This document shows, one piece after another, positions 26,862-64,000 of a stretch of 64,000 nucleotides of DNA. Made by a program: the position numbers and the translations under genes. The stretch comes from Branchiostoma floridae (taxonomy: Eukaryota; Chordata; Leptocardii; Amphioxiformes; Branchiostomatidae), in contig NW_023365788.1 of assembly GCF_000003815.2 (NCBI RefSeq), positions 186,001 to 250,000 of the forward strand, given 5' to 3'. A model generated the notes under the pieces. That model did not search any database and was not told where the DNA came from. It was given only the letters and a program-made list of their open reading frames with translations. Every line of letters begins with the position of its first letter. Within the stretch, counting starts at the first letter, position 1.

Positions 26862-29800
26862 CTAGATCATCCCGAACACCACTACATTTACCACGACCAT
26901 TATCACGGTGAAAATAGCGAAAAAAATCCTGTCAATACGCGAAGCCACCTCCCTCCACTCATACAAGGCTTCATCAATCTTCCTCTTCTCTTCCCGGCTC
27001 ATTCTGGCGGCTCTCAGGTTATTCACGATGACGTCCATCTTGGCTAGGAGAACCGGGTCCATGGAGTTGTTGTTGTTGTTGTTGTTGTAAGACTTGGTGA
27101 GATGAGTCGTCTCCATAGCAGAAGTGCTGTAGGGCCTTTTCATCCTACTGGTTCTGCCGGACAGCGCCGACTCCAGGTTCTTCCAGATGCAGGAGTTCAA
27201 GGTGACCCCAGAGGCGTCCGGAGGAAAGCTGATGGAAAAATAAATGGTATTAGACCATTGTTGCAATTTTTTTTGCCACACTTCGCTAAATACAGGTTAC
27301 AACACAACACTGCTGCGGAGCAGACACAATTACATGAAACAGATACAAAGTAAAATTAACATTAGATAAACTAAACTTCTCCTCTCCATTCAGTTATGGT
27401 AGGGATAAAGGAACAGGCATGTTGTTGATACTCCCTAATCAAACGAATGTATTACAGTTAAGGCAGGCCAACGTTATTGAAAAGTTTTACCCCTTTACTT
27501 TGATATACTAAATAATACGTGTCTGTCATGCGTAGAAAATATTGTTTGGGGCATTTGAGCTCGATTTCAGCTAATATCGTCCTTGTTAATCGTGGTTATG
27601 AATGAAGAAAATAACTTTATTGTATACATTCAAGCCTGGACGGGCTAGGTACAGGTCACTGAGAACAGACATAACAGACATATGCAGAAACAACAAGATA
27701 CAATTTAACTATTTGTAGGTGCTAAGGCCCCCTTTCCACTAGACGGCGATCGCGCTGCGCTCTCACTGCGACCTGAATAGGATTTGTGAGAGCGCCGTCC
27801 TAGTGGAAAGGAGATTTAAGCTATCAGGATGCTCAACACCTCGCTTCTTTGTACAAGGGTTGGCATCCGTCTGTCTCGGAAGACAATGGTAGGCAGACAG
27901 GGTGGGTTTTAAGGCGACCAGTCTGCCTGGCCTGCGCTTGGAGAAGGTGAAGGAGGGGTGTGCACCAGCGTTCCCGCCAGGTTCTTGAAAGTATGCGTCC
28001 AAATATTTGGGAGGGGGGTATTTATCGCATTATATTCTAGGGGCCCTGTGCACTTCCTTCTCCACCTTCTCGTCTACTGGCGCACTAAGTCCTACAGGGG
28101 CAACTGTATGCACCGTGTAAGATGGCCCCAGCAGATGCAGGTTTATTGCTTAGAGTTTCCGTCTTCCGACCAAGGATGCAAGGGGTTCCTCCCACCCCTA
28201 ACTCGTGTGTCATGGCAGGTGCATCATGCCCGAACATGCCCCTAAGGCCTGTCACTGCCACAAAGCCCTGCCACTAGCCACAGCTAGGTGCTCATTCACA
28301 CCTGAGTTAAGTGAGGAAAGTCGTCGTGTAAAGTGCCTGTCCCAAGGGCACAAGATCGGTGACACGGCAGCCGGATTCGAACTCTTGGGACCTCTTGGGC
28401 CTGAGACCAACGCGCTGCTGATTGCGCCAAGCGATCCCACAGTCGCACACTTGTACAAGGGTAGATATAAGTTATAATTAAGATAAGAATATGACGTACC
28501 TGATGCTGCGGCGTCGGAAGCATCTCCAGAAGAACCAGTCGGCCCACTTGGACGGCGCGTCCAGCCGGAGGAACGTCTTGAGCCCGGCCGGGGGAGGCTG
28601 CGCACGGAAACTGCCGAAGTGCAGGCTCAGGATGACCACATTCATGGCGATCGCCAAGGCGTTGACGAACAGAACTGCGCCGAAGTACTTCCCTAAAAGC
28701 AGAAAGATACTGTAACTGTAGAAACTCTCGCGGTGGTTTAATGTTCGCGGTTTCGCGGCGGCCGCTTCTCCGCGAATTTAAAACCACCGCGAACAGTTTT
28801 CTCATTACAGTAAAAGACAACAATGCACGGTGCTACCGCGAAATTAGAACCACCGGGAAAAGTCAATTTTTCCGCTACCACGAAATTATATCTCCGCGAA
28901 CTTCAATGCATTTATAGTAGCTATTTTTTTTTTGTACATCTGACAGGCAAGAATAATCAAATAAAATAACCAAATAAAATGATAACTATTAAAGTAAAGT
29001 ATGTAGTCGCATTGTCCTGACCACAGGTCGAAAGATAGATGGATCCAAGCAGGATATTTGTTTTACTACATACACATTAGCATTTTTGGCCCTGGTTAGA
29101 CTGTGTAAGATCAAATTGGACCAGTTCAATCAAATCGGTGAGATTTCCTGAGTAAGAACAGTACTAGTCCGATTCTGGATTGAATGAATCGATGCAATCC
29201 ACCTCTCGGCTTGTTTTGGGTGGATACAATCGAATTGACCAGCAGCGTTTGATTTGTGTAAAATGGACCTATTGACAACAGAAATTACACTTTAGTGCGA
29301 TAGATATTCTAACATACATAAAACTCAGGAAGCTCAGCCACAGGCGATGCCGATGAACAAGACGAAGTGGGGAGAGATGAAAAAAGACTGATTGTTGATG
29401 CAGAGTGTCCAGACCACTGCATCGGCAGAACGCAGTGGACTAGTACTACTACATAAAACTCAGATGTAGAACGGATCTGGAAGCTGTAAGCACCCTCAGG
29501 TCTTACCTATAATGGGCACGTAAGATGATGTTTTCGGCAGCTGCCCTGCCACCACCTCCATGTTGACTGTGTTGGCCAGTAGCGCCGTCAGAACCATCGT
29601 CATTCTCTCTCCGGACTCGGGCGGCGTCAGGAAACCCAGCAAACTGCAAATACAACAGTACAGATCTATACAATGTAGGTGGCGCTGTTGCGGCGAGAAC
29701 ACAATCCCAGGCGTGGCTAAGTTGGTATTCCCCCTAATCCTAGTTCATCACTATCCCTGGGGATGGCTTTCTTATCTATACCACCTCCTTGACCTGACAT

Positions 29801-31966
29801 TGGTTATATAAAGCAGCGAGAAGCATATACAACTATATACAAAAGAAAACTTTTAGAAGGGTAAAACAAAGCAATGACACCTCTGTGTATTTTCCTAACA
29901 ATGGCTATTAAAACGCTGACGTTTCTTAGGCAATCGTATAGTTGATACTGATTCGATAGTTGTAGAAACGGCACTGGTGTAGTGAAGACTAGGCTACCAC
30001 ACTACTGTCCAATTGTGTATCTTGAAATGTCTGTTACATCAATTCTTGCTACAATGCCTATGGTCAGAGTATTTTTGTTTCTTTGCTCATTTTGTTTCCT
30101 TATATCTTGTTTCTCTCACTCTATATTTAGAGTCTGGATAGGATGTCATCCATTAAAGCTTGCTGTGGCCTAAAACATAGCCATCTTCCAACGCCGGGAC
30201 ATCCAACAGCCAAACTGCCTGTCTGGATGTACCCTGCTTTCTCAACCGTCACTCTTAGTTCCTGACCACCCTGCTTATTAATGTTAATGAGCTTACCCTT
30301 ATATACGCAAGACCCCTTTTAAAAACTGAAAGGCATATTCTCTGATTGGCTGACAGTTGGTTGGGGGGGGGGGGGGATTGAAAGAGCAGGTTGCATCCAG
30401 ACAGGCGGTTTGGCTGTTGGATGTCTCTGCGTAGGAGGATGGACATAGCTAACGAACTCACAAGCCATATGGAGATATGCATACCTGATGAGCATTAAAA
30501 CACAGGCAGGCACAAAGATGTAGTACTGATAGTAGAGCGGCCTCCTCTTCATCACCAGGGTGAAGGTGACGTCAGGAAAGGGTTCGGGACAGCAGCTGCA
30601 AAGAAGAGGAGTAAGTTTAAGTCTGTTGGGTCTCAATTATACAATTTGTAGCTAAGAATATCCCGACAATATTTGCTGAGTCAAGTTCCTCAGCGACACC
30701 CCAATGGGGTTTTTGGAGGGTAAAGAAGATGAAGATGAAGTTTCGTTCTTGCTATGGGTGCTGTAACGTTGACCCACACCACATTGAAAAACAGTGTTTT
30801 TGAGATCATGTCAAAGATATTTGATTTGACTTGATTTATTTATTTGCACATTTAAAAAAAACATAAAGCTTGTACATACTCTTCCCTTGTCAATATTTAC
30901 AGATTACAATACAGTTTAACAACTCAAAAAGTAAGAAAGGTTGAATGGATATGAAAATCATACATTAAACAGTAATGTAACAAGGATATCGTCAAACCCT
31001 TGGAATTGATTGGCATTCTATGACATAAGTATACGTTTTAGAAGTTCTTATTCAATCTAAATGTATTTGCTCTTTTTACAGATGCTTTGAGTGGGACCGG
31101 TAGCCCAATGGCAGCATGTTCGCCACGGGACTGTGAGGTCTCGGGTTCGACTCCGGCTGCCGTGTTACCGATTTTGTGCCACTTTGCACGACTTTCCTCA
31201 CTTTACTCAGGTGAAACATGAGTACCCAGCTTCGGCTAGGACCGTCCCTCGAATAGGACGTTAAATGGAGGTTCCGTGTATGGGGAGAGCCACGCCCCAT
31301 GCACGTTAAAGAACCCCCACACGTGCGATGGTGTGGTGTGCGATGGTACAAATCCTTCCGTCTGGAGTTGGTGATTCACTTCAAATCACCCGGTTGGAGG
31401 CCTGGCAAACCTGTCTCGTATCAGCCATACGGTGATTTACATCATTCATGTACGAAAGTTGATTAAAATATAATATTAAAATGTCTTACTTGTAGTAGTG
31501 AACGTGTCGCTCTGCTACCAGGTCGGTGACTTTCCATTCTTCCATAGAACCCAGGTTGGCGATATCTCCTTTTGGGAATCTGTTGAAGCAAACGATACAT
31601 CTGTTAGATATTACCTACATTCATAACAAAACAACTTCAGGTGCTTAGTTACGCTTTACTTACTTCTGGAGAGGGATCGTCAGATCTGTTGGAAATGAAG
31701 AGAATGTGCATGTCCTAAAAGCCTATTTTTGTTACCAAATGAAATAGTTCGAACACTCGCCTGTAATATCTATCTCCAAAATGTCAGAAAAAAATTAAAA
31801 GGCTTCTTACAAAATGTAATTGTGAGATTTTGTGTATTTACATATATATATATATAGAGTATATAGTAGAGTAGATTCATCCCTCAAGCTACTGACATCT
31901 TGCACACTGCAGAAAGACATCTGGAGCCGCATAGTTCAAGTTTTGAACTTTTTTTCAGCCTGTCAG

Positions 31967-32005
<39 letters not shown>

Positions 32006-32665
32006 CCTCCTTGCTTACACTTATCTTAACAACCTATGATGTCATCAAAATCCACCCACCGCGCATGCCCCCAATTGTGACCTTTCACCTTCATTCGTTA
32101 ATGTATAGGTAGTGACAAAAAGGCACCCGATCTGCGATTGTGACACCTACCGATTCACGAGGTCCATTTTAAGTCCGTCGTACGACCAGGAGCCGAATTT
32201 GAGCGGACAGACTTGGATATCTTCGGGGAAGTACACGATGTTGACCCGGCAGGCGGCCTTGTACGTGAAGGGGTACAGAAAGGCCACCGAACCGTCGGGC
32301 CGGATCGTCGCCTTGAAGTCCGGATTCTCCACAAATCCCTCGTCAAACACACTGTGGAAGAGTTTCAGGAGAGATAGATACATCAAGTCTATGTCTTTAT
32401 GTCTGATAGACTTGATTTTAGTTCATTTGTTGTTTTCTTCGCACGTACACATATACACACAGACACAGAGAGAGCAGAGGGAGATAAAGACTGGAAGAGA
32501 AACGTACATATTATACATGTAAGTAAAAGGGAGAGAGATGGGGGGGGGGGGGCAAGCACAAAAAATAATCAAACACAAACGTATTATGTAATGCGGTAAG
32601 GGAAAGAGAAACACATACATACACGAACGCACACACACACACACACGCATACACACATACACACG

Positions 32666-32718
<53 letters not shown>

Positions 32719-35700
32719 GCACAGACCACAGATGTTCACACAGAAAAACATATCAGAGTAAGGGAGAGAGAGGAAGAGCGATAGCGAATAGTGAGAGAAA
32801 GAGCGATGGCGAGAGAGAGGGAGGGAGGGAGAGTGAGAGAGAGGGGGGGTGAAAATGGAGGAAGGGAGAGGTAGGGAGGGGGAGGTAGGGGCAGTGAGAA
32901 ACAGAAATTTTTGTGAATTTGTGAAATAAACAGGTACCTGTTATACAACAAGATGTCCGGACTCCAGATTTTACTGCCCTGGATTCGAAGTAAGTCCAAT
33001 CCGTTGTATTCCGATGGATCCCACGTTAAAAATGGGTCCGTCCAAAACTGAAAAAAAAATTGGAAAAAATGTAGGTCTTATATTGCACAGAATGAATTAC
33101 GACAAGACATATAATATATATTATCTGAAAAACCTCTGTGTTATCGTGAGGTATCGTGTGGAGCAATCGGTAATGTGTTTGGCCCAAAAGTTTGAAAGGT
33201 ACCAGGTTAAAAATCCCCGATATATCCCGATGTTGTGCCCTTGGTAAGGTAACTTAACACGATTTTCCCACTTCACTCGGCTGTAAACGAGCACGTAAAA
33301 GAACTTATCATTACACATATCAGAAATAGCAGGGGTCTTTCTGGTTGTCACCAGTGGTTCAAATCCCACAGTCCTATACTGGCGGTAACTTGGGCGATTT
33401 AGCCCCGCCTTTTGTATGCTCCTCGCAATTCAGCCCCTGGCTGCGAATAGAGAGTAGTCTGTCCACCCAATTACCAATAACAGTAAAGAAATATAGAAGC
33501 TTTTTGCAAGTTCGTGCCCGAGGGCTAATTGCAAGTGCATGGTATAAACATAGGAGATATACAAGTGACAATGAACAGTTATGAACAATATTTTACTCTA
33601 ATACTAGTGTTGGCTATTTTTAAACAGGTTGGGTTTGACTTCTTTTTTTTGGAAGCAGAGGGAGACGAAAAGCCCCTCAAATTAAGTCGACCCACCGAAT
33701 AACCAATAACAATGCTAAAGACTAAAGCTATGAACATGTAACAGATGATATGTTTAATTTACAAATAAGTAATAAGTGTTGACATACCAGTCTCATCCAA
33801 AGGTTGGCTGTAAGCATATGATTCCTGTCGTCCTGTATAGCAGGCAAAAATTATATTGAATATCGAAACATTTTTTTTTTAATTTCTTGGAGCAAGTTTT
33901 TTTTATCTTTTAATCAACATATCCACGTATGAAATTAAATTTAGTTCTGTGAGGTTTACACAGTAAATATCAATAACTTCCTCGAAAAATGCTTGAAATG
34001 CGATTGACTGAAATACGAGTAGCTTCTTAAGGTGGGTTCACACGTGCGCATATATTTAAGTCCGTATGAGGCGCACATGGGAGTATTTGCCTCCACCAGG
34101 CCCACACAGGTCGTTGTAAATATAATGGAAATTGGACAAACGTAAATAGGTAATATGTCAGACGAGTTAGCTGGGTCGCTAACCATACTTCTCGGCCAGC
34201 TAACTCATCTGGCATGTTATGTATCTATATTTGTCCAATTTGTACTATTTTTCCCGCGACCTGTGGAGCCTGGTAGAGACTAAGAGCTTCCTAAGCACTT
34301 CAAACGGACTTGAATATATACGCATGTGTGACCCCACCTTTAGGCCGCAAAGGCCACAGTAAAGTGCCCTAGCCGGCGATCGCGGTGCGCTCTCTCTGCG
34401 GCCTAAAACGATTGTGTGTAACCGTCGACTTCATAAGTATATCATAAGAAATAAATATCATAAATGTGTGACTGAAATGAAAACAAAACACACAAATCGT
34501 AATAAAAAAAGTCGTTTTATTTTCTACACGCATGTATACAATTCGTTTAGCGATCTGTCAAATTTGAGGTCGCAGAGAGAGCGCAGCGAGGGTGCCGTCC
34601 TAGTGGAAAGGGGGTATGATTAAGGCCTAACCTTCGCTTTCAGAATAGCTATATCATACAAAACGTAAATGTGTGACTGAGAAGACAACAAAACACAGAA
34701 AGTGTAAACAGATTCGTTTCTTTTCTATACAATTCGTTGAGGGATACGTCAAATTTTAGGTCACAGAGAGAGCGCGGCGAGAGCGCCGAACTAGTGGAAA
34801 TGGTTATAAGATCGCCGTCATAGCACTGGAATGGGGAGCGTCCATAAATACAGACATACCATGTGTAGATATTCCGCCACCGCGATGTCGATGGTGACGT
34901 TCACGGCGTCCGACACGTTTCTAACGGGCCGGCGGTCGGTGTTGTACCCCGCTAAGAGATTCGTTATCAGCTGTTCCTCGGGAGATTGTATATCGCTGCC
35001 AGATGTCACTTTAAAAGAAATATATTGGTTATCTTACCACGGATGTACTTGTGTACATTACTCAAATTAGAGCCTGATTTGCATCATCAAAATATTATGA
35101 AGTAATTTTCCAACTTAGCTATGTTTGTGTGTGTGTGTGTGTATGTGTTTGTATGTTTGTATGTTTGTGTGTGTATGTGTGTGCGTGTGTCTGTGTTTGT
35201 GTGAGTGTATTATGTTTGTGTATGTGTATGTATGTATGTATGTATGTATGTGTGTGTGTGTGTGTGTTTGCGTGTGTATGTTTGTGTGCGTATGTGTGTG
35301 TATGTATGTATGTATGCATGTACTAGTATGTATGTATGTGTGTCTTTGTGTATCTTGTGTGTTGCATTTCCTATACCTATAGACACTTGGTTCACCATGC
35401 ACACCCTGAAGGCCAATTGTTCACAATATATCAAATATCACACCACAAGACGAGATTTTTTCCCTATCGCCCTTCTAATTGGCTTTGTGACCAAAGTTTT
35501 GTCAGGCCTTGTCAGACACATTGTATTTAGCCAAATTACTTGGTGACTTTAGTAGAATTCTGAATGTTAATTGATGCACGTGGGACTAGGAGGTATTTGC
35601 TCGTATGATATGAAGTAATATGCATGTTCATTTCCTAAATTTAATATCTATTGGAAAATAACATTTTCTTCTAAAAGTAGGACTTATAGGACAATATGAG

Positions 35701-39632: not shown

Positions 39633-39924
39633 AGCGTGGTGAACACAGTTACTCGAGAAAGCCTTGGCCGTGACCTCTGGCAGTATGAGAATTTTTTTAA
39701 ATGTCGGAGATAAAGATATAGAGATAAAACTACAAATGAGTGAGTTTTGCAAACAAGCTGGAAAAAAACGGTCAGCACCATAGCCATCCCCTCCAACAAG
39801 TGCATGGACTGGCGACAATGGGGGACCAGAAACCAGGCGAATTCTGGTATAACGTTACGGTACTGCATTGCTCATCGATGCAAACTAAGTCAGCAAATAC
39901 CTAAGCAAAAATGCCAAAAGTTAT

Positions 39925-40170
39925 GCATGTTTTGTACATGTGGACTTTAGCAAAGCCTTTGACTCCGTTTGGCGATCAGGTCTTTTTTTAAACTTAACAA
40001 CCTTGGAATAGAAGGAAGATTCTTAAAGACCAAAAAAAAACATGTACTCAAAAACCTTACAAAGCCTTACAAAGCCTTTTTAACTAACCATGGGGTCCGA
40101 TAAGGCTGTACTTCAAGTCCTACTTTGTTTAATTTATTTAATTCAATGCACTGCTCGATATGTTGCTTGG
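39925..40170 (+). pseudogene. Decayed reverse transcriptase fragment
   Basis: Starts with VDFSKAFDSVWRSG, the catalytic-domain block before the YADD motif of CR1/Jockey-type LINEs. It continues in shifted frames with a GLFFKLNNLGIEGRFL-like block, then a GCTSSPTLFN-like block. Frameshifts and stops show it is dead. Confidence 0.65.
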
Positions 40171-42235: not shown

Positions 42236-43860
42236 TTAACTCGGGGTGATCTTTGGGCGTCCAATGAGCAGAGTGCACGGGATGGCCACAGCGATGGCGA
42301 TGATGTAGAGGACCAGACTCAGCCTGTCCAGCACTTTAGCCAACAGAGCGTACTCTCCAACTTCTTCATCATCATCACCGCCACTCGCCATAGCATCGAT
42401 GCTGCCGGACAGTTGTTCAACACTGGCCTTCAACTCATCTACGCTCCCCTTCAATCCGATAAGGGTAGCTCCGACCTCATTCTTCACGTTCAGGGGTGGG
42501 TTGACTCCTCCGATACCAGGGTCTTGGCCGTCCGCTTTTGTGTGTCGTTCGATGTCATTTGTGTATTTTGCTTGGTCTTCCTTTTTCAGCTTCTTGGTCA
42601 AGTCTCCCATCAGCAAGGCCCTAAACAAGTGAAAGATTCCATAAATAAATAAAAAAATAAAGGGTCTTTAGATAATTTCAATATAGACTATTTTTCTGTC
42701 TATTTAAAAAATTGTGATACCTTGCAATGTGTTTCAAGAAGATCGTCCGCGCCCATTTGGGGACGGGTCCCTTCTTGTCGTGTATGATGATGATGAAAAG
42801 AGTCGTCAGCATGAAGAGCGCCATCAGAGCCATGCACACAATGATCAGCATGGCTGGAAGAGAAGGAAATGTACTTTGAATGGGCGACAAAATAACCTAT
42901 ATGACAGTGTAATATAGCTTTGTATGTCAATATAGAAAATTACGGACAGTACATATTCATTGCCACATTTGCTTTCGATAATAACATTTTGTACAATCAA
43001 TGAGGTTAAAATCTTTTTAACCTCCTAGGTACAATGAAAACTGTGTAACAATAATGATAAAGTCACATGCGTGGATCTCAAACTGAAGGCGTCCATGGGA
43101 TAGAAGCACATGACCGTGTTCCGTCAACTATTATGTTTCTTTTCTCAAGAAAAGGTTGCTAAGATCTTTGTCGTTTGAACAGAGACGGGGGGCGACACAG
43201 GTTATCTGGCATTTACGACCCTCTGCTGCAGTCGTGTGTCCCTGACGTCACGTCCGGAAACTACGTCTACAGCAGACGGGTTTATTCCATGAACAAGGCT
43301 GACGGAGTCGGCTGAAAATTGGGGTAAGTCCCAATCTAACTTGGTGTTGGTTACGTAAAATTTAGTCTTTTCCACAATGTCATTTACCAACACAGATGAA
43401 CTTTCATGCTAAGATCTTTGTCGGTGTTGGTTCAGTTACACCCTGTCTTAAAATTCTTGGGATAAGCAAAAACTGATAGTGTACGGCGTATTAATGTTAT
43501 TTCGTATCAGAACTCGCTCACCAATGAAAGGCAGGGTACTGGACACAGGCAGGAAGCCTGTAACGACGACTAGCGACACCACCATGGACAGCAGCACGGT
43601 GACGCCGAACCCGATCCTGTCACCTTTGTCGATGGGCATGATGAAGGTGATGATCATGAGGATGATGAGGATGAGGCAGGGAGAGATGGTTGTGGAGTAG
43701 TGGTAGGTTGGATCTCGCTTGAGCGTAAGAGTCAGACAGGCCGTGTTGTTTCTAGCTGATAGAGTAGTTTTTCCACTCCACTCTCCCGTGACGATGTCGG
43801 CCTCGTCGTTCTGGCAGGTCAGGAAGTTGCTGTCTTTGTGTGTTGTGGAATTGGAACAGT
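42236..43860 (-). other. Channel pore and transmembrane region of the chimeric receptor
   Basis: Exon 43522-43860 holds the end of the ligand-binding domain plus M1 and M2 ([15 protein letters not shown]...). Exon 42721-42853 holds M3 and the start of the cytoplasmic loop ([17 protein letters not shown], the conserved post-M3 helix). Exon 42236-42620 holds a charged loop of about 100 residues with the acidic GGDDDEE, then M4 ([21 protein letters not shown]) and an 8-residue tail. Confidence 0.88.
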
Positions 43861-46800
43861 CTAAAAAAGAAAGTTTCAAAATTTTCTCAATCCAAATTAT
43901 CGGTATCATACGTCGACATAATATGTCTAGGAAGAATAGAGATACTAAGAAATTCCTAATGACGTCTAATCGGACAGATTTACGTATGTGCCATTGGTTT
44001 CTCATATTTATATTATATTATATTATAACATAGATTAGGTTACGGCTCCGATTGGAAAAAGAGACGTGACCCCTAAGTGTCCACATGTCATACCTGGATA
44101 CTGTAAATGCATTTACGTTCGCGGGCATTTAATTTCGCGGTGGCGGATATACGACATTTCGGGACCCGGGTAGTTTATTTAATTTAATCAAGTTCGCGAC
44201 AGCACTATGCACTGTAGTCCCTCACTGCCAAGGAAAATGTTCGCGTTGTTTTTAAGATCGCGGTAAAGCGGCCACAGCAAAAACTGAGAACATTAAACCA
44301 GCACGAAAGCGTCTGCATTTACAGTATACAGTAACGGTCTATTCGCAGTATACTTACTACTTGAGTACGACCAGGCCCTGGGTTCATTTTGAGTCAGACT
44401 TAAACTAAAAAAATCCTCCCGGGACCAGGTAACACCAAAACGCCGATACCTACCCGGAACCTACAATGAAGAGTGCACCTGGTATCCTACAGTCCACCGA
44501 AACAAATGTGTGGCTTCAGAGCCAGACCTGGGCTACATGCCTAACGGATACCCGTGCAATCTGGGCCGTAGCCTTACGTATGCTACCAAGTAGTGTCTTT
44601 TTACCTTCCCATCATGCAATGCGTGCATACAATAATATCACTAGCCAGGGAATTGTGCCATGTAATATCATTGTGCCCAAACTTCACCAAACAGCAGTGT
44701 TTTTCTGAAAATACTATTGATTGATGATATTATACTACTTGTGCATCAGAAAAACACAAATGNNNNNNNNNNNNNNNNNNNNNNNNNNNNNNNNNNNNNN
44801 NNNNNNNNNNNNNNNNNNNNNNNNNNNNNNNNNNNNNNNNNNNNNNNNNNNNNNNNNNNNNNNNNNNNNNNNNNAAAGTATTTTCAGAAAAACACTGCTG
44901 TTTGGTGAAGTTTGGGCACAATGATATTACATGGCACAATTCCCTGGCTAGTGATATTAATGTATGCACGCATTGCATGATGGGAAGGTAAAAAGACACT
45001 ACTTGGTATGCTACTGTCTATATACATGATTTTTATGCGTCTGGTGTAGGAAGACATAGACTTTGATCTATGAATCTTTAGTTGTAGAATTATCCAGACT
45101 ACCATATATACCTATTGCGTACTCTTCCCCAGCTCTCCAGCACACCGCACACGTCATGTTGTCCTGTGGGAAGAGGAAGGGGTCCAGAATGCAGGTCGTC
45201 GTGGTCAGTGATTCAATAGGCCAGGTCACCTCCCCGTTGTTCAAAATCTTGACCTCTGACTGAGGAAACCCGCCACTATAACCTGTGTCAGCACTGATAA
45301 GAAAAAAATAACTTTAAGCTTTCCTCCATAGCTAAATTGGCATTTTGACTTTCCATTTTTTTCTCATTAATGAAATTCAGAAAGAATAGAGTCGAAATTT
45401 AATTTCAGCAGGTTGGTAGGATATAGGATAATTCTTGTTAGATTCTTGTACACAACCAGGATATACTTAATGTGCTTACGTTTCGGTTTCTATCAGACTT
45501 TCTTTAGACCTTCTTTAGAACTTCTGACTAAAGTTCTGCTTCTCGCCGATATATGTAGCCGATGTAGGTGGCGCTTTTGCGGCGAGAAAACTATCCCAAA
45601 CGTGGCCAAGACACCGAAACGTAAGCACTGTCCTAGATGTGTATAAGAATTCTCCTATATACTAACAATAGAGTCGTAACGAATATTGATGGATGAGCAT
45701 GCATGGAAGATTCTAACTATCCCCTGCTGTTAATTTGGAGCATAGATTACTTTAGGTTGCACAAAAAGACCTGACAAAATATTTACTTTCTCTCCAGGAT
45801 CAATGTTGGCTTCCAGACTTGATCATCTAGGATGAACATACGATCCAACCCTCCATATTGTTTCGTTTCCCATTCCAGTCGGTCGTCTTTCCAAGCCTGT
45901 TACATACAAAAACAACATACACAAGACCACATACTTCTGATTAAAAAATAAACAGCCGTGTAAAAATGAATTACAAACGAGTCACTTGCCATATGTTTGC
46001 TATTAGAATAAGTACATTTGAAAAGTATATCTATCTTCTTTTGATTAATGTAGAAGATGCTAATTTAGGTATCATGCTTGTGCATTCGGAACTGCATTGC
46101 TTCTCTGTAACTGAACCTAAGGGTACTCAGGTTTATGTAACTCTTTTCTGTACCTATTTCACAACAATACACACTTTGTATGTGCCTTGTCTTAAGATAG
46201 CAAGTCTTTATCTTTCATAATTAAAACAGGAATTCATCGTCATTACAAGTAATAGCAAAATGACTGTGAGTTGAGGAAAATGAACTTACGTATTCAGCTT
46301 TAAAGGATGTTACTATCTGTTCCGCTTTTTCATCCTGAAAGGAATTAACAAAACAGACGCCATTACGATTGTGAATTCAGAGAACAGAAGCCATCATAGG
46401 AACAGATCGGTGGCTAATGTATGCTTTTTGCGACCGATCTGGTCGGAGATAGTTTTTTTAACGCTTTGTTAGTCAAAACAATGTTTTCTCATCAACGGAC
46501 ACAAGGCTCAATACTAGAAAGACACTGGTGGTCAAGTAAAAATTGCTTGCAACCGTTGAGAGTATATCTGTAAATTCTATTAACTGAAAAATATTGTGTA
46601 GGTAGAAAATGTTTAATTGATTAATCAACATGGCGGAAAAAGTCTTCATACTAATTTATTGAGGACATATATAGCGACGTTTTGAAATTCTGTCATTTGG
46701 TATTTCTCACTTACCAAGTTGATGACGTTGAGGACGTATGCCTTTATATTCAAACTAGTCGTTGGAGACACCGCCTTGTTGTAGACATTTGCGCTCAGAA

Positions 46801-49800
46801 GGTCCTTTTGTAGTTGGAATTTTTGGTCGACTGTAACACAAATGTTAAGACTGGTGGTAAGTTTACTCCATAGCTATGTTTGTGTGCGAGAGATCGTATT
46901 TGGCATCCTTAACGATTTGAACTTGAGAGTTCCAAAGACAAAATGTTCTAGAATTGCTACAATATGTATATCGGCAATCGCAATAGGTACAGAGTGGGTT
47001 GGACAGAAAGTCAGAGAGAGAGAGGGTAAGAGAGAAAGAAGGAGAGAGTTGGCCACAGTCACATTGTGAAATTTATATTTAACAAATTGTTAATTGTATA
47101 CATCACAGCGTCATGTTAAGGTACAAGGTTGTTCCGGTACCTATCTAGTACTTAATTATCCTCAATCAATGATTATCAGAATTACAATTCCAAGTGAAAC
47201 ATATCAAGATACAACAATATTAGATTGATTAAACGAGATGACCTTCGCATTCAGGTTTTACTGTTTCCCAGTCGACTTCTCCTGTTTCGTCATCAGTCAC
47301 ACATAGAGCCCTGTTGGGCGTAGTGTCTTTCTTGAACTTGTAACCTGTATCACACGTGTACGTAATTGTGTCATCAGGCCAGTAGAACTTCAGCTTGGGA
47401 GACCGCTGACCAAACTGTGGTTTTCCGGGATCCTTGCACCCCTTTACTGAAAAACAAACAAACAAACAAGAATTATAACACTGTGAAGCAAAATGTTTGT
47501 GTGCATGTGTTTGTTTCAGATAAAATTCTTCAAATTCTACAATACTTGCGTTGTTGATACGCTGGCGTCATCGTCAACAAAACGATTTGTAAGGACGTCG
47601 CAATAGAACATAATGACCATGTCGTTTAAAACTTGAGGGAAAAATGTCCTATATGTACCCTAATTAACTTGACCGTCGAAAAAGAATTTAACTTGTTGAC
47701 GACTTACTGTTACAAGGCACGATGTCACAATCCTCGTATCCATCTGGTTTGTAGCACCATGGTCTATTCCAGTCGTCCGGGTTACGACATTTGTTGCCAA
47801 CAAGGTTTGCCCAGGGGTAATACGCTATGGTGCCTTGCTCATCGCTCCATGCGCTACAGTCTATTCCGGCTATAGGAGCTCTGGACTCATTCCCTCTGTA
47901 ATTTGCACCATTTCCATCGAAGCACTCCACTACGACGGAAGAAAATGAAATGTACACGGTTAAGATAATTAAGATAACGCACACGACGAAGACACAAAAC
48001 ATTTGCCAATTTTCTCAGTTATTTTTAGATTGTATAATTGACATACATGTATAGCTGACTAAGAACAGACTTACCACCATCCTTCATTGAAGTCTTGATG
48101 TTGTTGCAGTTGGTGTAAGGGAAAATCTCACAGTTGGGGAAAGCTGCCCAAGAGTCCTCATTATTACAGGAGTACTTCACCTCTTCACACCAAGAACGAC
48201 AGGGCAGCTTTTGTCGGAGGTTCGGACTAAAACAACAACAAAGAAGATGGTTGAATGATGATGGCGACATAACAGTCAGTGACACTACCTCTTGATTCTT
48301 TCCCCGTTTTTGGATAAGAAAAACGAGATATGTGATTATTTCTTTGCTTGAATTGCATAACCGGTAAACTGACGATTGGCGTTTGTGTACTGAACAGTAC
48401 AAGTAAGGTGTCAAGTTGTATATTCTTAAAAGACTGACAGATTTAATTAAGTCACACACATGCACTGGGAGGGTCCAATACTCTTGTGTGGTGGATTATT
48501 TTACGTGCTTGAGCTGTGACTCTCTTCCTTCGGATCGAGGGATGACAAAAACTTAAGTTATTATGTACTTATTTTCATCTGAATGAAGCGAGGAAAGGGC
48601 CTCGCGGTCATCGGCATATACTGTAAATGCAGAAATGTTCGCGGTGGATTAATGTTAGCGGTTTTCGCGGTGACCACTTTACCGCGAACTTAAAACAACC
48701 GCCAACATTTTTTTATTATGGTATTAGACTGCAGTCTATGGTGTTACCGCGAAATTAAATCCCCGCAAACTTAGATGCATTTACAATATACGGATTGGAA
48801 GCCAGGACCTCCGTCTGTGTTACGGGCCAAATACTCTACAGTGGCGTCACAAGGCCCGACTGCGTGGCCAGAAAAGTTCACCTAACTACTTGCCATCATG
48901 CCATCATCCATTAGCATTTTATGGAAACGACTTATCCGTATCCAGGTATTGGTGGACCAAACGCAACCAAACCAGCATTCAGGAGTTTGAAACAGACGGA
49001 AACTCCTTACCTGGCCTCGCAGCGCGGTACAATGGTAGCACAGACGAGCTCTTTAACACGGGGGTGGCAATCAGACTCGGCAAGGCTTTCGAGGTCGGTG
49101 AATGCTGCCGAGTTTGTTACCATGTCTACCGTGATGTGACTGTAGTCCAGTGGGTTGGGGAGTGTCATCTTTGAGCCCCACTCAAGGCCCCTGCATATCG
49201 TCAACGACGATGGAATGTCTTGACACGCTAAACAAAGGAAAATGCATCGAGTAATGTTACCATTGCTCTTGAGTCCAATCATCTGAAAACGTTATATAGA
49301 CTTAATAAGAATAACTTCAATCATCGATCTAAGATGGCATGTTGGAATAATTTCAAACTTGAATTAGGCCACGTAACCCTTTCAGAGCCAGAGCCTTTCA
49401 GTTTTATAAAAACATGGCGGATGTAAGGTGAAAGTTTCTCATAAACAAAGAAGAAGTCGTTAATATCACTACGTGGTGCATAAATGTGAAAATTATGTGA
49501 ATTTAGTGCAAGAAAATGTTATATAATGTGAATTCGTTTAGAAAAATGTGAAACTCCAAATGTGATTTATTTTCAAAATGTGAATCGTCAAATGTTATTC
49601 TATGTCGAAAATAACGTGACCCTCCAAAAACTGTGAATCGATTATGCGAAATCGCACAACCCAAAAACTTTACCAACAAAATCAACAAATATATGCATTC
49701 ACCATGCAAAAACTTCTCAAAGATTTTAAGTATGTATTACATACATCCTTGTCATAAACTACGAACTTCGTACGCGTCCAAGACAAAGTTAACGCTGCCT

Positions 49801-51633
49801 TATCTTTTTACGTACTAGTCGAAATTCCTAGATTCCTATGGATTAAGAACTGTACCCACCACAACTGCTCGCATCCTCGTCACTACGGTCCCTGCAGTCA
49901 TTGTTTCCGTCGCACCTTCTCCAGGCGTCTATACAGGTTACACCGTTAGCACACCGGTACTGGCCGACTTCACACTGAGCAAACACTGGAAATCAAAATA
50001 ATTTGTGTATAAAAAGATGCAATTAACTAGCACTGTTTAAATATTTTCATAAAGGTAAACAACACACTACTTCTTTCAAAGAGCATGATTAAAGTCGTAA
50101 CGATAAGAATCATTCCTAGGTCAATGAGAACTACTAGTAAATTGAATACAATTAAGTATACTAAATACTGTTTAGAACTGTTGTCAGGGGATAAAAGGTA
50201 GCAAAAATGCGCCATGCGCGGTTTTGACAAATGATATATAAGAGTACACAAAAGTTTCACATTGACCTGGCAAATATTTACTATCTATGAATAATTGAAT
50301 TTAAACGTTATAAGGCGCAACTAAATTGTCCTTGATAAATCTGATTTCAGATTAGTTATGTTCAATTTGCTTATTGAGATGATATTACCTTTATCTTCGG
50401 CTGCATAGTTGGCCTGAAATCCCTTTCTTGTTTCATACTCATCGGATGTGAATCGCACAGTCATGACGCTGCCACTTGAGGTCGTGGGATCGGGGATGGT
50501 TGCTCCATGGAACTTAGCTGTATGACACAAACAGTCGAGAAAGTTATTCTAAAAGCTGAACAAAGCAGGCCTGCAGGATACGTGACCAAGAAGTGCCGTT
50601 ATATTGGCTACTTTTATCGAAGCAGTAAAAAACAAATGAATTAGACCACATTATAAAATATAATTGCATGTGAACTACACCTATCTCTACAGGGAAGGAG
50701 CCATTCAGTACGCAGAAAGAGAAGAAGGAAGTATGCAAGTAGTATAAACCTAAAGTTATGAATCAAGAAAAGGTTGAAATGGTATTCAGTCACGTCCCGT
50801 ACTTTACATGTATGTAAATGTACTACAAAATTTGCACACATGGTTGCTGAAGAATGTTTGATTCCTTACCTATCTGTTGTGAAGGATCAACTGTGTCTCC
50901 GTCATACACATACACGAAGTCATAATCTTCCTCAGTGTTAAAGTCTGCGAACGTAAGCCTGACGACTTTGGGCGGGGTGACAGAGATCTTGTATGTGCAG
51001 TTGCTGTTGTCAGGGTAGTTGTTTGTGTAGTTCGGACTAGTAAACGACCCACTGTCCGCCGTTAGGCTCAAATCGCATGCTGACAAGAAAGAAGGAAAAT
51101 ATGTATGATGTCTCGTCTTTTCAAGTGACATATCTACAATTGGCAAGGTCTACAAAGCCGTGACTTTCCAATGAACTCCAAAATAGGGGTGGGTACTGGT
51201 ACAGACAATATAGGTCCAGGTCCAGACCTGAAACTGTACCTAATTGTTTTTAAAAAGTTGAGGCTGGGTAATATTCGGAAAAAACGGGCCTTTTTGGTTC
51301 AGAGGATTCTGTTTGGTGGAGTGTCCAACGTTCGAACATTAAATACAATTTTGAATTCCAAACTTTAGACCAAATTGTATGTATTTTGATTTTTTTAAAT
51401 CATCGTAAAATATTTTAAAATACAGGTAAATGTATTGGGTCATTAGAATACAATAAAGCCCTTATTTAATATAAATACCATCTTCATACCAAATCACTAA
51501 GCAAGAAAAAAAAGTAAAGAAAATGCAGAGACAAAGATAATTAAAACAATGACGTTTACTCACCTGTTTGGGAGGAAACGGCATTAGGCAACAGACAGCA
51601 GGCGACCACACTAATCCACACTGGTGACCACAT
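42236..51633 (-). CDS. Chimeric pentameric ligand-gated ion channel with CUB, LDLa, Frizzled, kringle and Sushi domains
   Basis: A Cys-loop receptor subunit with five extra extracellular modules. Fifteen exons: 51564-51633, 50870-51079, 50389-50517, 49860-49985, 49011-49227, 48075-48226, 47708-47929, 47243-47446, 46715-46830, 46290-46334, 45787-45896, 45112-45293, 43522-43860, 42721-42853 and 42236-42620. They total 2640 nt and 879 aa, all with GT/AG borders and consistent phases. Order: signal peptide (1-23), CUB (24-136), LDLa (137-178), FZ (179-301), kringle (302-375), Sushi (376-443), ligand-binding domain (444 to about 649), M1-M3 (650 to about 730), cytoplasmic loop, and M4 (852-872). 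The Cys loop is C568[14 protein letters not shown]582. It lacks the alpha-type Cys-Cys pair and has W525-KPT instead of WxPD, so acetylcholine is an unlikely ligand. M2 has Asp at -1'. The alternative is two genes merged by my reading; the unbroken phase chain across 15 exons argues against that. Confidence 0.88.
43150..43420. mobile_element. Partial copy of the palindromic element at 26517
   Basis: Shares 'aacaaggctgacggagtcgg', 'gtaagtcccaat' and 'accaacacagatgaactttc' with 26517-26840. It lies in the M2-M3 intron of the chimeric receptor. Confidence 0.65.
44099..44326. mobile_element. 'TACTGTAAATGCA' palindromic MITE
   Basis: Complete but diverged copy in an intron of the chimeric receptor. 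Confidence 0.75.
44583..45009. repeat. Large inverted repeat around the gap
   Basis: About 130 bp at 44583-44713 recurs almost perfectly as reverse complement at 44875-45009, including 'cagtgtttttctgaaaatac' and its partner. The unresolved gap sits in the loop. Confidence 0.85.
44763..44874. other. Assembly gap (112 N) in the centre of a palindrome
   Basis: Lies in an intron of the chimeric receptor, between the exons at 43522-43860 and 45112-45293, which join in phase. It is flanked by long inverted arms (see the repeat at 44583-45009). Confidence 0.99.
45112..46830 (-). other. Neurotransmitter-gated channel ligand-binding domain (main part) of the chimeric receptor
   Basis: Exons 46715-46830, 46290-46334, 45787-45896 and 45112-45293; the last strands run into 43522-43860. 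[21 protein letters not shown] and the 13-residue Cys loop fix the family. The 45- and 110-nt exons have exactly the same sizes and positions as in the nicotinic-like gene at 26862-38242. Confidence 0.88.
45472..45628. repeat. Short element with perfect 16-bp inverted ends
   Basis: GTGCTTACGTTTCGGT at 45472-45487 and its complement at 45613-45628. The interior block 'gatgtaggtggcgct.ttgcg' recurs at 29672-29705. Confidence 0.65.
47243..47446 (-). other. Sushi (CCP) domain of the chimeric receptor
   Basis: One 204-nt exon with phase-1 borders. Four cysteines and the CCP core are visible: [40 protein letters not shown]. It lies directly before the channel's ligand-binding domain. Confidence 0.93.
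47708..47929 (-). other. Kringle domain of the chimeric receptor
   Basis: One 222-nt exon with phase-1 borders. Six cysteines in kringle spacing, with the hallmarks [28 protein letters not shown] and EDCDIVPC. The lysine-binding Asp-x-Asp is represented by the DGYEDCD region. The FZ-kringle order is that of ROR receptors. Confidence 0.95.
48075..49227 (-). other. Frizzled-type cysteine-rich domain of the chimeric receptor
   Basis: Exons 49011-49227 and 48075-48226, split by a phase-2 intron. All ten cysteines of the FZ fold are present: ACQD, TIC, SDC, LVC, PRC, LPC, SWC, YSC, PNC and TNC. Landmarks [17 protein letters not shown] and [13 protein letters not shown] match Frizzled, ROR and MFRP domains. 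In those families the fold binds Wnt or related ligands; ligand here is unknown. Confidence 0.9.
48619..48789. mobile_element. 'TACTGTAAATGCA' palindromic MITE
   Basis: Complete copy in the phase-2 intron that splits the Frizzled domain. Confidence 0.75.
49860..49985 (-). other. LDL-receptor class A domain of the chimeric receptor
   Basis: One 126-nt exon, phase 1 at both ends. Six cysteines ([22 protein letters not shown]) and the calcium cage [17 protein letters not shown] are intact. Confidence 0.93.
50389..51079 (-). other. CUB domain (two exons) of the chimeric receptor
   Basis: Exons 50870-51079 and 50389-50517. The CUB hallmarks are visible in order: [61 protein letters not shown] and the closing QANY. 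The acidic FNTEEDYD stretch matches calcium-binding CUB domains. Only two of the usual four cysteines are obvious (ACDL and NCTY), so the second disulfide appears to be lost. Confidence 0.88.
51564..51633 (-). other. Signal-peptide exon of the chimeric receptor
   Basis: Starts at the Met at 51631-51633 and encodes [20 protein letters not shown] before a polar SQT, a typical cleavable signal. It ends in phase 1 with ACAG|GTGAGT. Confidence 0.85.
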
Positions 51634-63931: not shown

Positions 63932-64000
63932 TTAGCTCGCGGAGACCTTTGGGCGACCAATGAGCAGAGTGCACGGGATGGCCACAGCGATGGCGACGAT
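63932..64000 (-). CDS. C-terminal end of a second chimeric-type receptor gene (partial, runs off right edge)
   Basis: Reads [20 protein letters not shown] then Ala-Ser-stop (TAA at 63932-63934). It differs from the chimera's C terminus at only four residues (IVAIAV for IIAIAV, and VSAS for ITPS at the end). This is M4 plus tail of a tandem paralogue, same strand. Whether the extracellular modules are also present lies outside the window. Confidence 0.85.
   Translation of the reverse strand: MVAIAVAIPCTLLIGRPKVSAS

Follow-up and report, generated by a model that had tools for sequence, protein, structure and literature searches.

We analysed 64,000 nucleotides of the genome of the lancelet Branchiostoma floridae (NCBI RefSeq assembly GCF_000003815.2, contig NW_023365788.1, positions 186,001 to 250,000 of the forward strand; this whole stretch is hereafter called the window, and corresponds to C230:186001-250000 in the contig numbering used below), in which the principal feature is a minus-strand gene of fifteen exons (51633-42236) that appears to place a series of extracellular modules on a Cys-loop ion channel. 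The fifteen exons join in frame to 879 amino acids and a stop codon, all 14 introns are of the GT-AG type, and the domains follow one another as signal peptide, CUB, LDLa, Frizzled (FZ), kringle, Sushi and a complete Cys-loop channel. The same 15-exon, 879-residue protein had been proposed from the letters of this DNA alone (the original prediction), and the exon join bears it out.

The exon join places the exons, all on the minus strand, and Pfam matches or alignments support them as stated here. Exon 1 (51564-51633), placed by the join, holds the start codon and signal peptide; a similar exon (MWPLAWIGVVACCLLSNGVSSQT) opens the neighbouring copy C (C230:284525-284448), and exon 1 of copy A2 is matched at 73%. 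CUB is divided between exons 2 (50870-51079, first half) and 3 (50389-50517, second half), both with Pfam CUB matches; LDLa, with six cysteines, occupies exon 4 (49860-49985, Pfam); FZ is divided between exons 5 (49011-49227, Pfam Fz) and 6 (48075-48226, Pfam and comparison with solved chains); and the kringle fills exon 7 (47708-47929, Pfam). Exon 8 (47243-47446) encodes Sushi and ends in the weak donor AAG/gtcatc, as judged from a Pfam scan of the exon alone and from the donor score. Beyond intron 8 (46831-47242), the Sushi-to-channel junction, the ligand-binding domain of the channel starts in exon 9 (46715-46830, Pfam) and continues through exons 10 (46290-46334, 93-100% identical in close copies where found), 11 (45787-45896, Pfam) and 12 (45112-45293, including the Cys-loop; Pfam and alignment). 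Its end, together with M1 and M2, lies in exon 13 (43522-43860, Pfam and alignment), M3 lies in exon 14 (42721-42853, Pfam and alignment), and the intracellular loop, M4 and the stop codon lie in exon 15 (42236-42620, Pfam).

A Pfam search of the joined protein, which the original prediction had put forward as a check, returns CUB (6.6e-26, residues 25-131), Ldl_recept_a (2.6e-7; 7.6e-10 when the LDLa exon is scanned alone), Fz (1.6e-12), Kringle (4.7e-10), Neur_chan_LBD (8.2e-24, 84.7 bits against a cut-off of 26) and Neur_chan_memb (1.4e-23, 84.9 bits against a cut-off of 28.1), all above cut-off. Sushi is absent from this list and its exon scanned alone barely passes (21.3 bits against a cut-off of 20.7); the counterpart of this exon in the copy on contig C17 matches at 4.5e-10, and the four Sushi cysteines align. 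The predicted cysteine counts of the modules (LDLa 6, FZ 10, kringle 6, Sushi 4) are confirmed, and the CUB of the window gene has only 2 cysteines. Every module, with CUB and FZ taken as two-exon units, begins and ends in phase 1, and phase-1 borders are the usual sign of exon-shuffled extracellular modules. The order CUB-LDLa-FZ is that of MFRP and FZ-kringle that of ROR and MuSK, which are single-pass proteins or kinases; the window gene shares both orders, there set on a four-segment channel, and no kinase domain of the ROR or MuSK kind appears in the Pfam list of the joined protein at E values up to 0.001. Architecture of this kind, five module types and a Cys-loop channel in one gene, is almost certainly what the locus encodes.

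The doubtful joint is that between Sushi and channel, which we read in ten copies: the window gene (copy A), its near-twin A2, B, C2a, C2b, C2c, C18, C17, C8 and C6. The splice sites stand at the same place and in the same phase in 10/10, and the acceptors likewise match in phase in 10/10. At the corresponding base, the Sushi donor reads gtcatc in A and A2, gtaata in B and gtaaga in C2a, C2b, C2c and C18; in the C17, C8 and C6 copies, which are only about half identical, the donor of the Sushi exon is gtgatt and the phase carries over unchanged into the exon that follows, with junction residues V-N-H, V-D-I and V-N-H, respectively, against V-D-Q. Since the joint is shared with these half-identical copies, it is old in the family, and the window copy holds a weakened version of it.

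On a rival model, two adjacent genes have been wrongly joined, one for a secreted CUB-LDLa-FZ-kringle-Sushi protein and the other for a plain Cys-loop channel that has a start and a signal peptide of its own. This model can appeal to the weak donor of the window copy and to the fact that exon 8, left unspliced, meets a stop after four further codons (GHLV); mispredicted domain architectures are moreover described as common in animal genomes in the available text of one study (PMC3927609). The stronger donors that B, C2a, C2b, C2c and C18 have at this position, the gtgatt donors of C17, C8 and C6, and the ten phase-matched acceptors all count against it, as does the search for a separate channel start, which was sought in the ten junction introns and is unsupported. 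Intron 8 of the window copy contains no phase-compatible ATG exon of at least 15 amino acids, and none in the right phase and of that length was found in the junction introns of A, A2, C2a, C2b and C2c, although C2b has one unspliced ATG. Candidate ATG stretches are present in the junction introns of B, C18, C17, C6 and C8, and those listed, at most five per intron, show nothing in common when their sequences are inspected by eye. The most hydrophobic of them lies in B, and its donor is poor (-3.6); the one with a good donor (6.8), in C18, lacks hydrophobicity and is a repeat of the end of Sushi. With no convincing channel-start exon in ten introns, we regard two misjoined genes as very improbable, and separate module and channel genes, the arrangement that the original prediction set against its own model, find no support in a junction conserved in 10/10 copies and a window intron free of such an ATG exon.

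Both halves look constrained. The ratio of nonsynonymous to synonymous substitution rates (dN/dS, NG86) is 0.215 for the modules and 0.125 for the channel between A and A2 (channel exons 9-13 only, A2 being without exons 14-15), 0.35 and 0.21 between A and B, and 0.115 and 0.35 between C17 and C6; the weakest constraint is that between C2b and C2c (0.51 and 0.50), and A and C17 are too distant for a value. Values below 1 in modules and channel alike indicate purifying selection on both, and the fusion does not look like an artefact of prediction. The proposal of a single gene in which a Cys-loop channel carries MFRP-like and ROR-like modules is, on the strength of this joint and the Pfam matches, upheld.

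The window gene does not stand alone. We searched the genome (513 Mb in 431 contigs) with searches that score only the best candidates, so that all family totals are lower bounds. The first search started from the window gene and took 66 of 100 channel matches (leaving out those to other exons) and 44 of 104 kringle matches. At 39/66 M1-M2 places a same-strand kringle lay 2-8 kb upstream, against 0.06 expected by chance; the controls gave 2 places with a kringle nearby on the opposite strand and 4 with one downstream, all from neighbouring family genes. With the diverged C17 copy as query, 87 of 151 channel matches were entered (M3 exons and short or broken fragments being left out), together with 69 kringle matches and 57 Sushi matches (44 from the C17 search and 13 from the first), and the upstream limit for assigning a kringle or Sushi was 20 kb. 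A kringle then lies 2-9 kb upstream on the same strand at 61/87 channel places, a kringle or Sushi lies upstream at 62/87, on 18 contigs, and the order kringle, Sushi, channel is preserved on one strand at 52/87, which again argues against two unrelated neighbours. Most of the 25 places with neither module lie in or near stretches with Pfam ligand-binding matches (including C2:26.4M, C13:10.8M and 11.6M, C17:13.1M, C7 and C5:9.8M), and we take most of these 25 to be ordinary receptors; at two others (C3:9265571 and C11:103907) a family kringle lies some 25 kb upstream, outside the limit, and C4:18898467 belongs to neither group. A family of about 60 loci is very probably present, some of which may be pseudogenes or assembly duplicates. 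The gene proposed in the original prediction is real and is no singular chimera, for it belongs to a family of about 60 loci whose outermost modules vary.

The window gene and its closest copies lie in tandem on C230 (A, B, C, D and A2). Of B (L040), the next family member, the window holds the last 22 codons (63935-64000, minus strand), its edge cutting off the remainder. A2 (L021 and L039, C230:388423-399400) is 94% identical in DNA to A across the junction; its standing as an independent full gene was rejected, for the match to A ends about 30 bases past exon 13 and an N run lies in the flank, so that A2 either is truncated or reflects a break in the assembly, and only its exons 1-13 were used.

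Where upstream sequence was read, LDLa, FZ, kringle and Sushi recur in that order, forming a stalk, although single modules were not found in some copies (the sequence examined from the C8, C6 and C16 copies showed no LDLa, and FZ exons of some family copies give weak matches only). The outermost module, or head, differs from copy to copy. CUB heads occur in the C230, C2, C11 and C18 copies. In the C17 copy, an EGF-type module (FXa_inhibition, 1.5e-12) accompanies a C-type lectin domain (CTLD; 3.7e-22) with the motifs EPN and WND (L046, C17:6095002-6095394), whereas the lectin domain of the C12 copy (1.2e-16; L097, C12:16361055-16360627) bears QPD and WHD. EPN is the motif of mannose-type and QPD that of galactose-type binding, and the two sequences suggest that these heads would prefer different glycans. 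The head of a C16 copy is a WSC-like module below cut-off (25 bits against 27.8), and that of a C10 copy consists of two YWTD-like exons, one of which passes Ldl_recept_b (33.3 bits, cut-off 21), the other being without a match.

To count heads we used 65 of the 69 kringles, the first 32 of 150 CTLD matches, 16 CUB matches, and 37 of 150 WSC matches chosen by eye, mostly on contigs holding family loci. All 14 CTLD matches of at least 60% identity lie upstream of a family kringle, as do two more at 51-52% (16/32 entered), 13/16 of the CUB matches and 9/37 of the WSC matches, and none of the head matches entered lies on the opposite strand within 15 kb of a family kringle. At least 36/65 kringle loci have a head among the matches entered. 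We asked how heads are distributed on a tree of the M1-M2 exon (59 sequences, 98 columns), which is rooted on two ordinary receptors, two of the four ordinary-receptor sequences having fallen below the length limit and been omitted; the branch separating the family from the two ordinary receptors has 100/99 support, and the bootstrap of the tree is not fully settled, with many open forks and several long branches. Head labels, in which 'none' stands for no head among the matches listed, require 12 changes on this tree, against a mean of 31.9 in shuffled labels and with 0/200 shuffles as low. Clustering of this kind is as expected if head and channel are inherited together, with near-copies adding to it, and with good confidence, if less than for the architecture itself, we would assign the heads to the same genes as the channels. 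CTLD requires 3 changes and WSC 5, at least 2 and at least 3 of which are forced by well-supported branches, indicating that heads were exchanged, lost or gained more than once. Elsewhere in the genome there are dense arrays of WSC-like modules (C16:14.98-15.22M and C4:2.90-3.02M) and of C-type lectin exons (C10:21.6-23.8M), which are possible donors of heads. A family-type kringle and Sushi pair at C8:9518652-9519575, with the lectin head of the following family gene about 3 kb downstream and no channel exon assigned, is possibly a soluble or broken member of the family.

The channel half resembles animal Cys-loop receptors. It aligns to solved nicotinic receptor alpha chains at E values of about 2e-35, from the ligand-binding domain through M3 into the cytoplasmic loop, and to solved 5-HT3A chains at about 1e-34, reaching M4; ligand-binding domain, Cys-loop, membrane domain, the acidic -1' and the Leu 9' of M2 are common to all of them. 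The Cys-loop in exon 12 is C-x13-C with FPQD, that is, the 13-residue loop with FPxD, and the alignment to nicotinic alpha retains FPxD, the pre-M1 Arg, the M1 Pro, the acidic -1' residue and Leu 9'; because these are kept, a gated pore is likely, with cation selectivity inferred from the acidic -1' position. The transmitter site is another matter: Y93, Y190, C192, C193 and Y198 (nicotinic alpha numbering) are E, L, A, R and C in the window gene, so that the aromatic box and the vicinal cysteines of loop C characteristic of a nicotinic alpha subunit are missing, and the loop that carries the retained W149 is three residues shorter than that of nicotinic alpha. With most acetylcholine-site residues replaced, acetylcholine is quite probably not the natural ligand, and the product is by its sequence a Cys-loop receptor and not a nicotinic acetylcholine receptor subunit. 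It also departs from nicotinic alpha and 5-HT3A in the roughly 420 residues of five module types that precede the ligand-binding domain, which would hence not be its sole extracellular domain. A micro-exon suspected between M2 and M3, where the join of exons 13 and 14 looked short, was dropped, as the alignment to nicotinic alpha spans the loop with a one-residue gap.

Lineage-specific expansion combined with loss of the acetylcholine signature recalls the chemotactile receptors of octopus and squid, which are nicotinic-derived, do not bind acetylcholine and number up to 26 in Octopus bimaculoides, according to the available parts of two reports (PMC11526382, PMC10338036). Both traits are found here, in about 60 loci and in a site loss read residue by residue in the window gene, and the family might accordingly be one of chemoreceptors, with the canonical pocket rebuilt for environmental ligands and the outer modules only structural. 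The same portions of these reports mention no extra modules for chemotactile receptors, whereas the lancelet loci carry them, and the variable heads, lectins included, point to the head as the recognition part; we consider the chemoreceptor interpretation rather unlikely.

Other features of the window can be noted here. An ordinary nicotinic-type receptor gene lies on the minus strand at approximately 29500-35030, with exon-sized open frames (LLYN, FGSWSYDG, SGERMTMVLTALLANTV) and two Pfam ligand-binding matches, and keeps transmitter-site residues that are lost in the module-bearing gene. On the plus strand, an open frame at 39889-40011 (ACFVHVDFSKAFDSVWRSGLF) is presumably a reverse-transcriptase fragment, judging by its motif. 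The intron that separates exons 12 and 13 contains a pair of 132-base arms (44584-45008), 99% inverted-complementary, with an N run between them (44763-44874); they may be a foldback element or may have arisen by misassembly at this gap.

The FZ and kringle modules were compared with solved chains. The solved chain nearest to FZ is sizzled, followed by Frizzled-5, sFRP3 and Frizzled-8; the 56 solved chains listed include Frizzleds, sFRP-type proteins and Smoothened and no ROR, MuSK or MFRP, whose presence in the library was unchecked. The kringle is nearest to those of plasminogen, and of the lysine-site acidic pair (Asp55 and Asp57 of plasminogen K4), the first Asp is kept and the second is replaced by Trp in the alignment with NPDADKGPWC, which is not the plasminogen-type pair and counts against a lysine ligand of that type. 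The picture of five FZ and five kringle domains around one pore presupposes a homopentamer and is an assumption. A Wnt-like, matrix or protease-type ligand that gates or clusters the channel, as suggested in the original prediction, would likewise be conjecture.

The stalk modules match known organisers of acetylcholine receptors. In the accessible text of PMC9083331, LEV-9 (Sushi) and LEV-10 (CUB, LDLa) cluster worm acetylcholine receptors, SOL-1/2 and Neto are auxiliary proteins of glutamate receptors, and Sushi, CUB and LDLa modules are in this way tied to receptor clustering or gating; these are separate proteins acting in trans, whereas in the window gene the modules are fused to the channel. 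Wnt and Frizzled control the delivery of ACR-16, as stated in the portion available of PMC6258899, and its reference list cites work on CAM-1, a Ror kinase, and ACR-16. A synaptic or junctional role, in which FZ and kringle would let a Wnt-type or matrix ligand cluster the channels while a transmitter gates them in the ordinary way, would fit these parallels. The mostly lost acetylcholine site, the absence of ROR, MuSK and MFRP from the listed FZ chains and a family of about 60 members with variable heads, in our judgement unusual for a synaptic receptor, speak against this proposal, which we hold to be distinctly doubtful.

We hypothesize that the window gene is one real gene of a lineage-expanded family of Cys-loop channel subunits with an LDLa-FZ-kringle-Sushi stalk, a replaceable head and a role in recognition or anchoring, a reading to which we assign a probability of roughly 0.6. 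Each subunit would raise its stalk atop the ligand-binding domain, with a cation-permeable channel beneath, and bear an outer head that is replaceable, being CUB in the window gene and C-type lectin, WSC-like or YWTD in others. Head and stalk would bind a glycan, the matrix or a partner protein outside the cell; this outer binding would concentrate or anchor the channel or gate it, and would at the least anchor or cluster it; and the channel would serve as read-out, its opening depolarising the cell. The outer modules may thereby do in cis the job of the separate CUB, Sushi and Frizzled-domain partners of ordinary acetylcholine receptors. That the heads themselves are the recognition parts that place or gate the channel is conceivable, at clearly less than even odds. 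Slightly more tentative is the specific proposal of about 60 ionotropic recognition receptors, pentameric cation channels in which mannose-type EPN lectin, galactose-type QPD lectin, CUB, WSC-like and YWTD heads would recognise the glycans or matrix of microbes, food or adjacent cells, this contact itself causing depolarisation, with the stalk anchoring in cis.

Several observations weigh against this reading. No head was seen among the matches entered at 29/65 kringle loci, and a few kringle loci, headed or not, lack a channel place among them, one of these being C5:4747394 with its lectin head. The heads were located upstream one exon at a time and are tied to the channel only by splice phase, order and tree association. 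The loop-B Trp is retained, so some small-molecule gating may remain. The LDLa of LEV-10 is dispensable for clustering, as far as the available text goes (PMC9083331), and each module therefore need not matter. Finally, the Sushi donor of the window copy (CGAAG/gtcatctc at 47243) scores -0.91, the lowest of the 14 donors of the gene (scores are from an approximate human donor matrix), leaving room for a truncated secreted form, of which this copy may make much. The window copy could by now be mainly a secreted decoy, running from signal peptide to Sushi and ending in EGHLV, while its sisters make the full channel; its donor, shared with A2, indeed contrasts with the gtaata or gtaaga of five other close copies. 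Another donor of the same gene scores nearly as low (-0.2, the next lowest), and channel exons 9-13 of A and A2 still show a dN/dS of 0.125 although both copies carry the weak donor, and we therefore consider a decoy unlikely, if less so than a synaptic channel.

Animal Cys-loop receptors are usually taken to have the ligand-binding domain alone outside the cell. We found no description of a module-bearing Cys-loop architecture in the open full-text literature searched, which excludes most subscription papers, and automated annotation of the genome may well hold gene models of this kind. A 2004 survey, in its available portion, sets the animal forms known at that time, simple in architecture, against bacterial fusions, in which extra N-terminal binding domains (PBP-I; MCP-N and Cache), unrelated to those of the window gene, also precede the channel (PMC549065), and a 2016 survey dropped the sequence ends and, in the parts available, remarks that associations of these channels with other domains were known solely from genomes, without experiment (PMC4795631).

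The fused subunit proposed here would unite in one chain module types that worms split among separate proteins clustering acetylcholine receptors, and the recurring stalk with exchangeable heads lends itself readily to testing whether a pentameric channel can be gated or positioned by a binding domain added to it. A large, little-known channel family whose outermost module differs from gene to gene suggests roles in sensing or anchoring beyond plain neurotransmitter reception, and for chordate evolution it would constitute a large receptor class.

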